From: Symploca sp. SIO2C1
GTDB taxonomy: Bacteria; Cyanobacteriota; Cyanobacteriia; Cyanobacteriales; Coleofasciculaceae
Reading direction: 5' to 3'
Assembly (NCBI GenBank): GCA_010692635.1
Contig: JAAHGL010000026.1
Coordinates: 1-64,000, forward strand
DNA length: 64,000 nucleotides
Shown here piece after piece: positions 26,384-33,504 of the stretch; within the stretch, counting starts at the first letter, position 1; every line of letters begins with the position of its first letter. A model generated the notes under the pieces. The model worked only from the letters and a program-made list of their open reading frames with translations, ran no database searches and was not told the origin of the DNA. Position numbers and translations under genes: made by a program.

Positions 26384-28288
26384 ATGTCTGCTCTAATACC
26401 TGTTACAAGTAATTCCATTGCTGGACTACACGCTCTTTGGACAGAAACATTAGGGGCACCTCAAATTAGTGTTGCCGTCTTAGATGGTTCAGTGGAGCAA
26501 TCCCATCCCAGTCTTGTAGGTGCAAAACTAACTCAACTAGACTCTCTTGCCTCCCATCGTTCCCATCAAGGCTCGGCAGCTCAACATGGTACACAGGTTA
26601 CTAGCATCATCTTTGGTCAACATCATAAATCAGTTCAAGGCATCGCTCCTCAATGTCAGGGTTTATTAATTCCCATCTTCACTGATGGCAAAGGAGGTGC
26701 AATTGCGCCTTGCTCCCAACTCGATTTAGCCAGAGCTATCCTTTTAGCCGCCAATCACGGTGCTCAGATTATCAACATCAGTGGTGGACAACTAACACCC
26801 AGTGGAAAAGCAGATCAACTACTCACCAATGCTGTTCGCCATTGCCTGGAGCATAACATCCTGATCGTAGCAGCATCAGGTAATGAAGGGTGCAACTGTT
26901 TACATATTCCCGGTGCTTTGCCATCAGTTCTGGCAGTTGGTGCCATGAATAGCGCAGGAATACCCCTAGATTTCAGCAATTGGGGTGAACAGTATCAGAA
27001 TCAAGGAATTCTAGCACTGGGTGAAAACATACCCGGAGCAGTTCCCGGCGGGGGTATTACTACCAGTAGTGGAACCAGTTATGCCACGGCTATTGTCTCT
27101 GGCATCGCCGCTCTACTACTAAGTCTCCAAGTCAAACGAGGTCAAACTCCCAATCCTCAAGCGGTTCGAGCTGCCATCCTTCAAAGTGCGATCGCTTGTG
27201 AGGAACAACCAGCACCGGATTGTCGCCGACTTTTGGCAGGTCGCCTCAATGTCCAAGGAGCAATGTCCATCATTCTTCAACAAGGAAAAGTCATGAATGA
27301 AAATGTAGAAGTCGCAACAGTGCAACCTGCACCTATTGAGGAGGCAAATCCACCTCCTCCCGCTCAACAACAAGTCCCTGCTGTGCAAGCGGCAACTTAC
27401 ACTGCTGTGTCTTCCGAAGTGATACCCCAAGCGGTAACAATTCAACCTTCATCAGTTCAGGTAAATCCCAGCGCCATACAACCTGCTGATTGTGGTTGTA
27501 GCGGCGGCGCATCTGCACAATTGGTCTATGCTTTAGGACAGCTAGGGTATGACTTCGGCACAGAGGCTCGCCGGGATTCTATCCAGCAACATATGGGTCA
27601 AGGAGCCAATCCTCAAGACCCTCGACAACTGTTAGCATACCTCGATGAGAATCCTTGGGACACAGCAGCGATTACCTGGACACTCAGTTTGGATAACACC
27701 CCCATCTACGCCATTCTGCCTCAGGGTGCTTATGCTCAACAGGGATTTGAACGGTTGCGCCAGTTTCTCAGAGAACAATTGACAGAAGGCGTTGAGCGGG
27801 TTTCGATTCCCGGTGTAATCATGGGAAAAATGATGCTGATGTCTGGCCAAACTGTGCCTGTGATTCTGCCTACGCTGCGCTGTATGTATAGCTGGACAAC
27901 ATCAGCCTTGATGGAAGCAATCTGTGGAAGTTCTCCTGATGAGTCAGCAGCACAAGGTGTGGAAAACTTCCTGGAAAGGATTTACTACGAATTGCGGAAT
28001 CTGGGGATAACTCCTCAAGAGCGAGCAATCAATTACTCAGCTACTAATGCTCTGAGTGTAGAACAGATTTTCGAGTCCGCTATTCGGGAAGAAATGGATC
28101 TCGACACGATTGAGGTAGAACCTAGTCCACTTTGTCGTCAAGGTTCTGAGTGTTGGGATGTCAAGCTCACGTTTTTCAATCCCCGACGTGTGTTTGAACA
28201 AGCTCGAAAAGTGTATCGCTTCACAGTCGATGTGAGTGATGTATGTCCGGTGAGTGTGGGGAGAGTGCGATCGTGGTTTGTGAGGTAG
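26384..28288 (+). CDS. Subtilisin-like protease of the PatA/PatG (cyanobactin maturation) family
   Basis: A 634-residue S8-family protease. The catalytic triad is visible: Asp34 (SVAVLDGSVEQSHP), His68 (AAQHGTQVTSIIFG) and Ser232 (SSGTSYATAIVSG), with the oxyanion Asn167 (ASGNEG). A Pro/Gln-rich linker (about 310-360, PPPPAQQQVP) joins a C-terminal domain of about 260 residues. That domain starts DCGCSGGASAQLVYALGQLG and has MYSWTTSALMEAICG, as in the non-catalytic domain of PatA/PatG proteins. There is no signal peptide, as in cyanobactin proteases that cut precursor leaders in the cytoplasm. Two short Cys-rich peptide genes follow at 35 and 474 bp. No YcaO (PatD) or PatF gene is present. 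Confidence 0.85.
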   Translation: MSALIPVTSNSIAGLHALWTETLGAPQISVAVLDGSVEQSHPSLVGAKLTQLDSLASHRSHQGSAAQHGTQVTSIIFGQHHKSVQGIAPQCQGLLIPIFTDGKGGAIAPCSQLDLARAILLAANHGAQIINISGGQLTPSGKADQLLTNAVRHCLEHNILIVAASGNEGCNCLHIPGALPSVLAVGAMNSAGIPLDFSNWGEQYQNQGILALGENIPGAVPGGGITTSSGTSYATAIVSGIAALLLSLQVKRGQTPNPQAVRAAILQSAIACEEQPAPDCRRLLAGRLNVQGAMSIILQQGKVMNENVEVATVQPAPIEEANPPPPAQQQVPAVQAATYTAVSSEVIPQAVTIQPSSVQVNPSAIQPADCGCSGGASAQLVYALGQLGYDFGTEARRDSIQQHMGQGANPQDPRQLLAYLDENPWDTAAITWTLSLDNTPIYAILPQGAYAQQGFERLRQFLREQLTEGVERVSIPGVIMGKMMLMSGQTVPVILPTLRCMYSWTTSALMEAICGSSPDESAAQGVENFLERIYYELRNLGITPQERAINYSATNALSVEQIFESAIREEMDLDTIEVEPSPLCRQGSECWDVKLTFFNPRRVFEQARKVYRFTVDVSDVCPVSVGRVRSWFVR

Positions 28289-28323
28289 TGATCAACCCGA
28301 AATAATTTGAGGAGAAAATCAGT

Positions 28324-28563
28324 ATGAAATTACCAAATCTATCTGAAGGAAGTTCCCGTTATATGCCGCTTAGATCAAATTCAACTAAACCAGGAAAGAC
28401 AGGTATCTCAAATAGCTCATTTTCTCAATTAGACGATTTACGTTTGCTGGATCCTTCTGTCTTCTATGGTCCGTGTGGTAGTTTTGACGTTTGCTACAGC
28501 CGTCTTTACGGATTTTATTGCTGTATGAAGACAGTATTTGGCTCTATCCCAGTTCCGTATTGA
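28324..28563 (+). CDS. Small Cys-rich peptide, candidate RiPP precursor A
   Basis: A 79-residue peptide starting at ATG 28324 behind GAGGAG, 35 bp after the protease stop and so probably in its transcript. The N-terminus MKLPNLSEGSSRYMPLRSN parallels that of precursor B (MKIPNQSTGQIRFIRYTK). The tail is Cys- and aromatic-rich (GPCGSFDVCYSRLYGFYCCM) and ends VFGSIPVPY. It has no membrane segment and no typical secretion signal. A conserved leader-like start, a variable C-terminus and a PatA-like protease next door fit a ribosomally made, post-translationally modified peptide. A small accessory protein is the alternative. Confidence 0.6.
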   Translation: MKLPNLSEGSSRYMPLRSNSTKPGKTGISNSSFSQLDDLRLLDPSVFYGPCGSFDVCYSRLYGFYCCMKTVFGSIPVPY

Positions 28564-28633
28564 ATTTTGCGTAGCTTGACAACTCTTTGAGTGTGTTACA
28601 ACGCAGATTCACTTAGTGCGATCGCTGATCTTG

Positions 28634-28665
28634 TAGGGTGCGTTAGCGACAGCGTAACGCACGAA
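28634..28665. repeat. Dispersed repeat, GTGCGTTA family
   Basis: TGTAGGGTGCGTTAGCGACA then GCGTAACGCAC: inverted GTGCGTTA/TAACGCAC around GCGACAGCG. It lies between the two precursor-like genes. Confidence 0.7.
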
Positions 28666-28697
28666 AACAAACAATAACTAACAACCAATAACACGAA

Positions 28698-28723
28698 ATC
28701 CCCCGTGCTGTCTTCCGGGGGAT
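28698..28723. other. Strong hairpin between the two peptide genes (possible IS200/IS605 end)
   Basis: ATCCCCCG pairs perfectly with CGGGGGAT (8 bp) across a 10-nt loop, TGCTGTCTTC. No T-run follows, so it is a poor terminator. Hairpins of this composition lie at the ends of IS200/IS605-type elements, and a similar CCCCCG...CGGGGG stem occurs in the IscB relic at 39308-39328. It may be an element scar, or may regulate precursor B, whose start lies 40 bp downstream. Confidence 0.45.
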
Positions 28724-28762
28724 GAGTTAATCATTTAGTCCATAGTGTAGGAGAATAGAAAG

Positions 28763-29086
28763 ATGAAAATTCCCAATCAATCTACAGGTCAAATAAGGTT
28801 TATAAGGTATACAAAATGGAATAAAACCGCAGCTATCAATCCTTCACAAGACGTGATTTACCAGCTCCCAGCCTTGACCTCAGATAGAACACCACGAGTC
28901 CCCATTCCTCTGGATTTGCCTTTGGCAGCTCTAGTTCCAAGCAATGAATGGGGTTGCGAAGGTCTTTTTTGTAAGTGTAAAGGTGGAAAAGATAGTGCAC
29001 AGTGTAAGATTGTTGCGCCTTATTGTGTTGATGATATCGATTGTGTTGGAGACAACTGTTCCTGTATTTGGGGTGGAGATCCTTAA
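28763..29086 (+). CDS. Small Cys-rich peptide, candidate RiPP precursor B
   Basis: A 107-residue peptide from ATG 28763 behind TAGGAG. The N-terminus MKIPNQSTGQIRFIRYTKWN matches precursor A at MK(L/I)PN-S-G--R. The middle is Pro/Leu-rich (TPRVPIPLDLPLAALVP). The last 40 residues hold eight cysteines (WGCEGLFCKCKGGKDSAQCK, then VAPYCVDDIDCVGDNCSC) and end IWGGDP. The cysteine density and absence of a signal peptide fit a modified or disulfide-rich core peptide. Its link to the protease is by position and by the shared leader. Not confirmed as a RiPP. Confidence 0.6.
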   Translation: MKIPNQSTGQIRFIRYTKWNKTAAINPSQDVIYQLPALTSDRTPRVPIPLDLPLAALVPSNEWGCEGLFCKCKGGKDSAQCKIVAPYCVDDIDCVGDNCSCIWGGDP

Positions 29087-29111
29087 TCATCTCCACAGTG
29101 CGATCGCTAAT

Positions 29112-29335
29112 CTTGTAGTGCCGTGTCAAGCTTAATTTGATGCATTAGTTGAAAACTCTGTTGGGTTGAGGTACGAAACCCAACCTACATTTATTGCACT
29201 ATTTTAAGCTTGACGCACCAGTAGGGTGCATTAGCAACAGCTAACACACAAAAACAAACGATAACGGTGCGTTAGAGCGCAAAAGAACAAAATGTTCTTT
29301 ATCTTAACCAAATAAGCGCCTAACGCACCTTACTT
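29112..29335. repeat. Cluster of dispersed repeats
   Basis: A TAGGTTGGGT-type fragment (GTTGGGTTGAGGTACGAAAC, then CCAACCTACA, about 29160-29190) is followed by a GTGCGTTA-type element (GTAGGGTGCATTAGC, then GGTGCGTTAGAGCGC, then CGCCTAACGCACC; about 29220-29335). There is no gene between 29087 and 29471. Confidence 0.65.
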
Positions 29336-31076: not shown

Positions 31077-33455
31077 TCAATATGAGGATAATAAATCTGC
31101 TGGAATACGCTCAACTGGTAACAGTAAGTTATCGATAATCTTTTCTCGCAAATCCTTCGAGGCATAAATATCTCCTCCAAGGCATTGCACTAGTAAGTTA
31201 AGGACATAAAGATAGTTTTTTAAAGCTTCAGTATTCTCTTCTGAGAGCCTCACACTATATCCAATATCTAGATAGTTAATCATAACTGATTGTAAGTTAC
31301 TTGCCCATTCTTGCCACTCTGACTCAGAGGCATCATTAGAAGGCAGATGATTTTGCAGAGAAGATAACTTACTTGCTAAATCTTTATTCAGTTCTTGAGC
31401 AATACCAATAGTATCTTTCAATCTGGGTTCAATATTTTGCGGAAGTTCAATGTACCCTTCATCGTATCTTCCTACTTGTTTAAGGTCAGGAGTCTTGTGA
31501 GAAGAGCGATCCCTAGCTAAAGCATGAATAACAGCTAAATCTAATTCTAGCTTACATTTTGGTGTTCGAGGAATGATTTTTTTCCGTTCTAGATTGATAT
31601 TTCTTAACTCATCTGAAAGTTTTTGAGCTAGCTTAGTGTCAATTTTTACAGTTCTTTCAATATAGAGATCTGTTTCTAAATCAAAAGCCAAGTAACATGC
31701 TCTCCATGAATTAGATGAAACTTTGGCTTCCAAAGTTATTCTGTCTAGCCAACAGAGCATTTTTTGCAGAGCTTCGCTTTTCACTAAAGCATTAGCATGA
31801 CAAAACAAGAGCTTGAGAAATTCATCAGCTTTGGGAAGGCGCTCTGCAATCATAAGAAAAACTTCTCGCCAATGGCGGTCTGTAAAATGTTGCTGAATGG
31901 TGTTGCGCAAAAGGTCTGGTTCTTGGCTTTCCAAAACATAGCGAGCTGTAAAATATTCCTGAAAGGTGAGATGAGAAAATGAGTAAATATCTTTAGCTTG
32001 TTCAACTACTAGTCCATGTTGTGATTCAATCGCTCTGAGCACCTCTCGGCTGTCAAGATCGAGAGTTTCTGGCTCAACTCCAGGAATATTTTCAATAAAA
32101 TTACGAATCATTTTTTCTAGTTCTCGTCGCTTCCAGAAATTTTTTTTTGGTTTTTGGTGAAAGGCATCATAAGCTATATTAGCAAACAGGCTTATTCTGC
32201 GCGGTCGTGATAACTTACCTTTGTAAATTGAATCCCGCTCTATTCGCCTGAAAGCATCCCATTTTCTGATAAATAAATCTACCGCATCTTCATATAGGGA
32301 ATTTCGCTCCTTGGGAAATTCATAACCATCTTCATATACCCAGCACAACATAGTTAATAGTAAGGGTTGTGTTGCTAGCTCTTGGATAGATCGGTTCTCT
32401 GTTAATTTTTCTAAGAACTTCTCGTCTATACCTGGTTCGTCACTATCCTGGAACCAGTTTTTCACAAATACAGCAACTTGCTCTTGATCAAAATCTGCCA
32501 TCTCCACTTCTTTAAAAGCTGGAGGTACATATTCACTAGCTCCAAATCGGCAGGTGATGACAAAACGATTTTTGGGATATTTCTCGATCAAAGTATCGAT
32601 GTTTTGATATACTCGCTGAGCCTCTGCAGCTACGACCTCATCCAAGCCATCTAACAAAATCAAGCACTGTCCTTGCTTCAGTAAGTCTTCAACCATTTCG
32701 TTCGCATCAGGAATACATGCGGCGAACTCCTGTATTATTGCATCAGTAAGAGTTGGCTTACCTTTATCCTCTATAAATGTCTTCAATCGAATAAACACAG
32801 GTACTAGTGGTTGAGGTAACTTTTCCTCCAGAAAGTACAGCGCTAGATACTGCAAAAAGGTCGTTTTACCAGCACCAGGCTTACCCCATATCATTAGTCT
32901 TGAATGACTCTTTACTGCCTCTAAAGCTGCCACAGAGTTTTGCTTATCTGCCAGACCAAAGCGATTCAAGCTCTGACTATCATCAGCATCTAAATAAGTC
33001 AGTAACTCTGGAAAGTATTTTCTTCTTCTTCGTTTAATATTCTCTAAAATATTTAAATCAGTATAGATGGTCGATAACGGTCGAGGATTAGTCATATGTG
33101 GCACTTTTATCGTACCACATTTTCCTTTTATTCGTTCTATATATGGATTAAGAAAATTTCCTTGAATGTCATATTGTTTCTGAACTAATTGACTCAAAGC
33201 TGCTTGATAACTTGAAAATTCTAACAGGAAGTCACACAGGTAATTGAGATTTTTCTCCTGAGTGTTTGGTGGCGTAGTTGCTTTAAAAAAATTACGAATA
33301 GTTTTATCTGAAATAAGACCAGAATTGCTATGTAAATCATGTTCATAAACATGGTTCAATTTGTCTATTAAATACGTAGGAGAACTACCACACTTCTCTG
33401 CATAAGCTTGCTTTAATTGCTCAAAAACTTTTGGATGAGGTTGGATTGTTGCCAT
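31077..33455 (-). CDS. NACHT-domain NTPase (STAND), putative defence or signalling ATPase
   Basis: About 792 residues from ATG 33455, which follows AAGGAGG at 5 nt (seven further in-frame codons exist upstream). The N-terminal 90 residues look like a small helical, HTH-like domain (ISDKTIRNFFK, then NLNYLCDFLLEFSSYQAAL). The NACHT core follows: Walker A GKPGAGKTT (about residues 191-199), Walker B LILLDGLDE (about 265-273), sensor RFVITCRFG, and winged-helix-like YSFSHLTFQEYFTARYVL. The C-terminal 280 residues are helical. Bacterial NACHT proteins include antiphage factors, but this family also includes regulators in cyanobacteria. A duplicated upstream element (see 33505 and 33906) suggests control by its own N-terminal domain. 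Confidence 0.85.
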   Translation of the reverse strand: MATIQPHPKVFEQLKQAYAEKCGSSPTYLIDKLNHVYEHDLHSNSGLISDKTIRNFFKATTPPNTQEKNLNYLCDFLLEFSSYQAALSQLVQKQYDIQGNFLNPYIERIKGKCGTIKVPHMTNPRPLSTIYTDLNILENIKRRRRKYFPELLTYLDADDSQSLNRFGLADKQNSVAALEAVKSHSRLMIWGKPGAGKTTFLQYLALYFLEEKLPQPLVPVFIRLKTFIEDKGKPTLTDAIIQEFAACIPDANEMVEDLLKQGQCLILLDGLDEVVAAEAQRVYQNIDTLIEKYPKNRFVITCRFGASEYVPPAFKEVEMADFDQEQVAVFVKNWFQDSDEPGIDEKFLEKLTENRSIQELATQPLLLTMLCWVYEDGYEFPKERNSLYEDAVDLFIRKWDAFRRIERDSIYKGKLSRPRRISLFANIAYDAFHQKPKKNFWKRRELEKMIRNFIENIPGVEPETLDLDSREVLRAIESQHGLVVEQAKDIYSFSHLTFQEYFTARYVLESQEPDLLRNTIQQHFTDRHWREVFLMIAERLPKADEFLKLLFCHANALVKSEALQKMLCWLDRITLEAKVSSNSWRACYLAFDLETDLYIERTVKIDTKLAQKLSDELRNINLERKKIIPRTPKCKLELDLAVIHALARDRSSHKTPDLKQVGRYDEGYIELPQNIEPRLKDTIGIAQELNKDLASKLSSLQNHLPSNDASESEWQEWASNLQSVMINYLDIGYSVRLSEENTEALKNYLYVLNLLVQCLGGDIYASKDLREKIIDNLLLPVERIPADLLSSY

Positions 33456-33504
33456 TTTTGCCTCCTTGTAAGACATGGATGCTTTACGAATAACATAACT
33501 CGAT

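Follow-up and report, generated by a model that had tools for sequence, protein, structure and literature searches.

A PatA-type protease gene with two leader-bearing, Cys-rich peptide genes in Symploca sp. SIO2C1: a candidate PatA-only branch of cyanobactin-like peptide systems

The closest described systems to the locus reported here are the cyanobactin clusters, which according to published accounts always contain both an A and a G protease (PMC4663559, PMC3877893). PatA enzymes cleave after G(L/V)E(A/P)S (PMC10885120), and nuclear magnetic resonance spectroscopy revealed no binding of the precursor PatE by the domain of unknown function (DUF) of PatG (PMC4259220). We analyzed a 64,000 nt stretch of contig JAAHGL010000026.1 from Symploca sp. 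SIO2C1 (in the following called the window), in which a gene for a PatA-type protease is followed by two small genes encoding peptides with a common N-terminus. No PatA-only system is described in the open literature that we searched, a scope that leaves subscription papers aside.

Among the described types, the patellamide type (PatA-PatG; TIGR03678) shares with the window locus the PatA protease with its DUF, the LPxQxxPVxR start and a recognition sequence II (RSII) before the core, which is degenerate in the window, whereas the window lacks LAELSEE (recognition sequence I, RSI), PatD, PatG and recognition sequence III (RSIII). The non-heterocycle cyanobactins of the anacyclamide/piricyclamide type (TIGR04446, PF19158) likewise combine a PatA-type protease with precursors starting PxQxxPVxR, have several precursor genes per locus and can dispense with PatD. 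They differ in having PatG, RSIII (FAGDDAE) and N-to-C macrocycles, whereas the window has neither PatG nor RSIII and its predicted cores, of 48 and 79 amino acids, would contain paired Cys. The linear cyanobactins aeruginosamide, viridisamide and muscoride are similar in their linear product and cyanobactin machinery; however, the muscoride D-type YcaO enzyme forms azoles and trims the C-terminus (PMC10885120), features missing from the window locus. The PatB/AcyB/McaB proteins (TIGR04220) begin with an N-terminus of the same kind, MRLPxxSxPVKR, but are conserved over their full length (ANYNDP) and have no variable core. PatB genes with this precursor-like start lie, for example, at L093:16562-16777 and L151:15760-15981. 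Lacking PatG and RSIII, the window locus falls outside the cyanobactin clusters as they are usually defined.

We consider it probable (roughly 75%) that protease and peptide genes together make up a minimal peptide system related to cyanobactins, in which PatA would cut after an RSII-like motif and release linear, disulfide-rich cores. We observed the pairing of protease and peptide genes, a leader/core architecture, an enrichment of the cut motif, a single protease clade and an even parity of Cys, as detailed below.

The window protease scored 759.7 bits against TIGR03895 (cut-off 421.05), has an intact triad and carries both PatG_D and PatG_C, and thus belongs to this family. It aligns with the solved PatA proteases 4h6w (E 2e-100) and 4h6v, triad residues included, and its C-terminal half with the solved PatG DUF 4uvq, so that solved homologues are available for both halves. 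The original prediction, made from the DNA alone, of an S8 protease with the PatA/PatG layout, this triad and a CGCSGG-headed C-terminal domain was confirmed, with CGCSGG starting at residue 370.

The two short open reading frames (ORFs) that the same prediction had described, with ribosome binding sites and a shared N-terminal start, are real. In both, AGGAG is located 9 nt upstream of the ATG, and when the 8.2 Mb genome was searched for the pattern of the shared start, only these two peptides matched. The leader profile recovered them from their own genome with E-values of 1.6e-6 (peptide 1) and 1.7e-10 (peptide 2), each peptide itself being part of the profile. The predicted Cys number of eight was correct for peptide 2, whereas peptide 1 has four and not five. 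Searches of NCBIfam and Pfam assigned neither peptide to a named family, and other peptides of the family touched TIGR04446 only below its cut-off; genome mining would miss such peptides because the window ORFs match no family model. Judged by sequence, the small ORFs are precursor-like, with a leader, a PatA-type cut motif and a variable Cys-rich tail. Together with the linked PatA protease, they agree at the sequence level with what is generally expected of a ribosomally synthesized and post-translationally modified peptide (RiPP), namely a precursor with leader and core next to an enzyme that removes the leader or modifies the peptide.

The arrangement recurs in relatives. We found the protease at 72–82% identity in Calothrix rhizosoleniae, Komarekiella, Coleofasciculus, a Xenococcaceae metagenome-assembled genome (MAG) and on an Acaryochloris marina plasmid, and at 56% identity in a Planctomycetota MAG. 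In each of them, one to five small ORFs lie downstream, starting with M(K/R)(L/I)PxQS or nearly so, with differing tails that are Cys-rich everywhere but in the Planctomycetota MAG. The Calothrix peptides start with MKIPNQS and MKLPNLS, in agreement with the two window peptides. The starts of the latter are therefore not due to chance, since in other genera, too, a protease of 72–82% identity is followed by homologous ORFs with the same starts. Lone PatA proteases of other cyanobacteria that are more distant (50–57%) are also accompanied by MxLPxQSxPVxR peptides, many with GVEAS. Besides protease and peptides, no neighboring genes are conserved among the close relatives of the window locus.

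For a genome-wide view, the leader profile (A2, 29 positions) was run over 386 genomes of the phylum and 391 genomes of the order. The order set yielded 34 leader-positive genomes (E ≤ 1e-3), 33 of which have a PatA-type protease within ~5 kb of the peptides; since some peptides are part of the profile, the independent evidence lies in the lack of confident matches elsewhere in these genomes and in the additional loci. These 33 comprise 32 PatA-only loci and one canonical cyanobactin cluster (G432), whose PatE was matched, and in the 34th genome (G504) the peptides lie ~1 kb from a contig end. The suggestion to look for the leader start next to PatA-like proteases elsewhere thus led to a recurrent pattern. 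TIGR03895 was above its cut-off in 110 of the 391 genomes, and the PatA-only clade with precursors of its own occurs in about 8–9% of the sampled genomes of the order. Eighteen leader-positive genomes had a single TIGR03895 match at 1e-80 and no PatG was seen in them, with the top three candidates per genome scored. A phylogeny of 78 proteases places all 34 full-length peptide-associated ones in one clade (SH-aLRT support 100), sister to cyanobactin PatA and with PatG outside; the window protease belongs to a six-member subclade.

The consensus of the leader is M(K/R)(L/I)PxQSx(P/G)VxR. For the 66 peptides that matched the leader in full, leaders of different loci were 41% identical and cores 22%, compared with 20% for either part after shuffling, bearing out the expected conserved leader and variable core; choosing peptides by their leader inflates the leader value, not the core value. 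Two loci, L086 and L130, have one peptide each starting with MKTPKQVAPVERSLNPAPISGQNGVEAS and then different tails. For close peptide pairs, picked at ≥72% protein identity, the pooled ratio of nonsynonymous to synonymous changes (pN/pS) was 0.33, as expected of translated genes. In profile comparisons with hhalign, the leader matched the PatE leader (E 1e-6) and the PatB N-terminus (E 2e-9), which makes the system a relative of cyanobactins rather than something unrelated. The common N-terminus suggests that PatB may dock on the same partner as the precursors.

The original prediction also held that core-recognition sequences are absent. This did not stand for the family: the strict RSII, G[VL]E[AP]S, is present in 20 of 97 peptides (at most one in shuffles) and the looser [GA][VILM]x[APTLS]S in 62% of them, compared with 4.6% when shuffled. 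RSI (LAELSEE) and RSIII (AYDG/AGDDAE), however, are missing from both window peptides, and the family would thus consist of PatE-like precursors without the sites for heterocyclase (RSI) and macrocyclase (RSIII).

Cys makes up 10% of core residues but 0.1% of leader residues. Its number is even in 66 of 69 Cys-containing cores, and 36 of 39 similarity clusters of cores are all-even. Among background short ORFs with ≥2 Cys, 69% are even; against this, the parity is significant per peptide (66/68, p = 5e-9) and per cluster (36/39, p = 5e-4). It depends on where the peptides are cut, reaching 97–99% at residues 24–26, compared with 55% at residue 36 and 86% uncut. This peak speaks for a cut close to the RSII position as well as for pairing of the cysteines with each other. 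Neither thioethers nor azoles would require an even number. The even number points to disulfides. From the proposed alternatives of a disulfide- or thioether-type product, the former is retained and the latter lost ground, also because no LanC (PF05147) was found in the genome; no search for radical-SAM thioether enzymes was made.

Other components are missing as well. The Symploca genome is 96% complete and contains two TIGR03895 proteins above the cut-off, both within the PatA-only clade, hence no PatG. The predicted absence of PatD from the cluster was correct and extends to PatG. There is a single YcaO protein, whose gene lies on a different contig and has no cyanobactin genes as neighbors. 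A PatE-type profile gave only a weak match, at a second PatA-only locus, and TIGR04220 (PatB) none at the window locus, with one PatB-like ORF below cut-off at the other. The claim that the products are distinct from cyanobactins needs qualification, as the leader is related to PatE and PatB.

We infer that the locus works like a cyanobactin leader-removal system and represents a PatA-only branch of cyanobactin-like RiPPs. The two small ORFs would be translated as ribosomal precursor peptides whose leader serves as recognition segment, perhaps for the C-terminal DUF of the protease, although binding by the DUF is a guess. The protease would then cut after GISNS in peptide 1 and AINPS in peptide 2 and free the C-terminal cores. 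With PatG, PatD, RSI and RSIII missing, these would be neither macrocyclized nor azole-bearing, and their even cysteines would be paired, most likely as disulfides. The putative product, a pair of linear disulfide-rich peptides, may be exported and is probably used against or between other cells.

Several points weigh against this interpretation. The profile was built from peptides beside such proteases, and a good part of its matches therefore arises by construction; peptide 1 scores lower against it than most peptides of the family. Both RSII copies in the window are degenerate (GISNS and AINPS), and the leader/core contrast between peptide 1 and its Calothrix counterpart is moderate (52% identity in the leader, 36% in the tail). 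The cut rule for the parity count was set after seeing the sequences. Finally, the locus has neither a transporter nor an oxidoreductase gene linked to it.

It is unlikely that the released peptides carry another modification, such as a thioether, thiazole, lipid or methyl group, introduced by enzymes encoded elsewhere. The lone YcaO protein on another contig would fit, as would the LCM-type methyltransferase (10 loci) or patatin-like phospholipase (13 loci) near other subclades, but none of the three is found in the vicinity of the window locus or of its close relatives. In addition, there is no heterocyclase site RSI and no LanC, and from the even Cys number one would expect the cysteines to pair with each other. 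Slightly less probable still are metal-binding (metallothionein-like) or unmodified bacteriocin-like cores with cysteines outside disulfides. The high Cys content of the cores would suit them, and with 28 of 66 cores Cys-free, the system can do without Cys; however, disulfide pairing accounts more readily for the strict parity and by eye no metal-binding spacing is fixed across cores.

A decayed cyanobactin cluster, with patA and degenerate patE copies left over after loss of patG, patD and patB/C, appears improbable. Whereas the relation of the leader to PatE is in line with decay, the proteases form one deep, well-supported clade sister to cyanobactin PatA instead of scattered remnants, triad and DUF are intact, the peptides have multiplied within loci, and both Cys parity and purifying selection speak against decay. 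We give the least credence to the peptides being regulators or inhibitors of the protease. Short proteins with a common N-terminus beside a protease could act in this way, and PatB, whose function is dispensable, has the same N-terminus, but the variable tails and the enriched PatA cut motif fit substrates.

The minimal PatA system proposed for the window may, at somewhat below even odds, exemplify a broad, undescribed RiPP class built on PatA alone, with a short LPxQxxPVxR leader, an RSII cut, large disulfide-paired or amphipathic cores and, in some branches, a patatin or methyltransferase as partner. If so, LPxQxxPVxR, shared by PatE, PatB and these peptides, would be marked as ligand of the PatA DUF. 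The PatA-only clade would extend the family to linear, Cys-paired peptides. The locus offers a handle on the role of the PatA/PatG DUF, as loci reduced to PatA and leader peptides still retain this DUF, and on what PatB is, as PatB has the same leader motif.

Table 1. Features of the PatA-only locus in the window.
Feature	Position	Strand	Basis
PatA-only clade cyanobactin-type maturation protease, 634 aa, Asp34/His68/Ser232	26384-28288	+	TIGR03895, PDB 4h6w, triad, tree
Peptidase_S8 (subtilase) domain, residues 27-269	26462-27190	+	Pfam PF00082; same span from genome search
PatG_D domain, first part of C-terminal DUF, residues 381-478	27524-27817	+	Pfam PF18047; PDB 4uvq E 2e-58
PatG_C domain, second part of C-terminal DUF, residues 517-631	27932-28276	+	Pfam PF18065
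Ribosome binding site AGGAG of peptide gene 1	28310-28314	+	read directly from sequence
Precursor-like peptide gene 1, 79 aa, 4 Cys	28324-28563	+	leader profile, Calothrix counterpart
Peptide 1 putative leader, residues 1-31, RSII-like GISNS at its end (28402-28416)	28324-28416	+	alignments A1/A2; predicted cut site
Peptide 1 predicted core, 48 aa, 4 Cys	28417-28560	+	RSII position; even Cys
Ribosome binding site AGGAG of peptide gene 2	28749-28753	+	read directly from sequence
Precursor-like peptide gene 2, 107 aa, 8 Cys	28763-29086	+	leader profile
Peptide 2 putative leader, residues 1-28, RSII-like AINPS at its end (28832-28846)	28763-28846	+	alignments A1/A2; predicted cut site
Peptide 2 predicted core, 79 aa, 8 Cys	28847-29083	+	RSII position; even Cys

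Each peptide gene is followed by short repeated intergenic stretches, GTAGGGTGCGTTAGCGACAGC and AGTGCGATCGCT (window 28615-28678 and 29097-29265). The NACHT, GDSL and glycosyltransferase genes around the locus appear local; among them is a NACHT/NCH2 STAND NTPase (31077-33476, minus strand), and other PatA-only loci, too, often have large kinase- or ATPase-like proteins in their surroundings. AraC-type regulators, lacking in the window, occur in the relatives L042, L089 and L146, either immediately upstream of the protease gene or next to the peptide genes. In Komarekiella, the protease gene is closely preceded by an ORF for a peptide resembling a double-glycine leader (KISGG; L042:7692-7895).

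The second PatA-only locus of the Symploca genome (G000:C106, L076, 1221-7882) encodes peptides with hydrophobic, Cys-free cores after GVEASG, next to the PatB-like ORF and an LCM-type methyltransferase. Across the family, two types of tails can be recognized, one rich in Cys and the other amphipathic and free of Cys, as in AWYDTLLDVVKTAAPIAAPILTSLI, the latter type accompanying the LCM-type methyltransferase of the 10 loci; tail-type loci include L085, L086, L128, L130, L132, L137 and L142. The patatin-like phospholipase genes near 13 PatA-only loci (among them L077, L081, L083, L085, L086, L130, L137 and L150) are mostly located downstream on the same strand.
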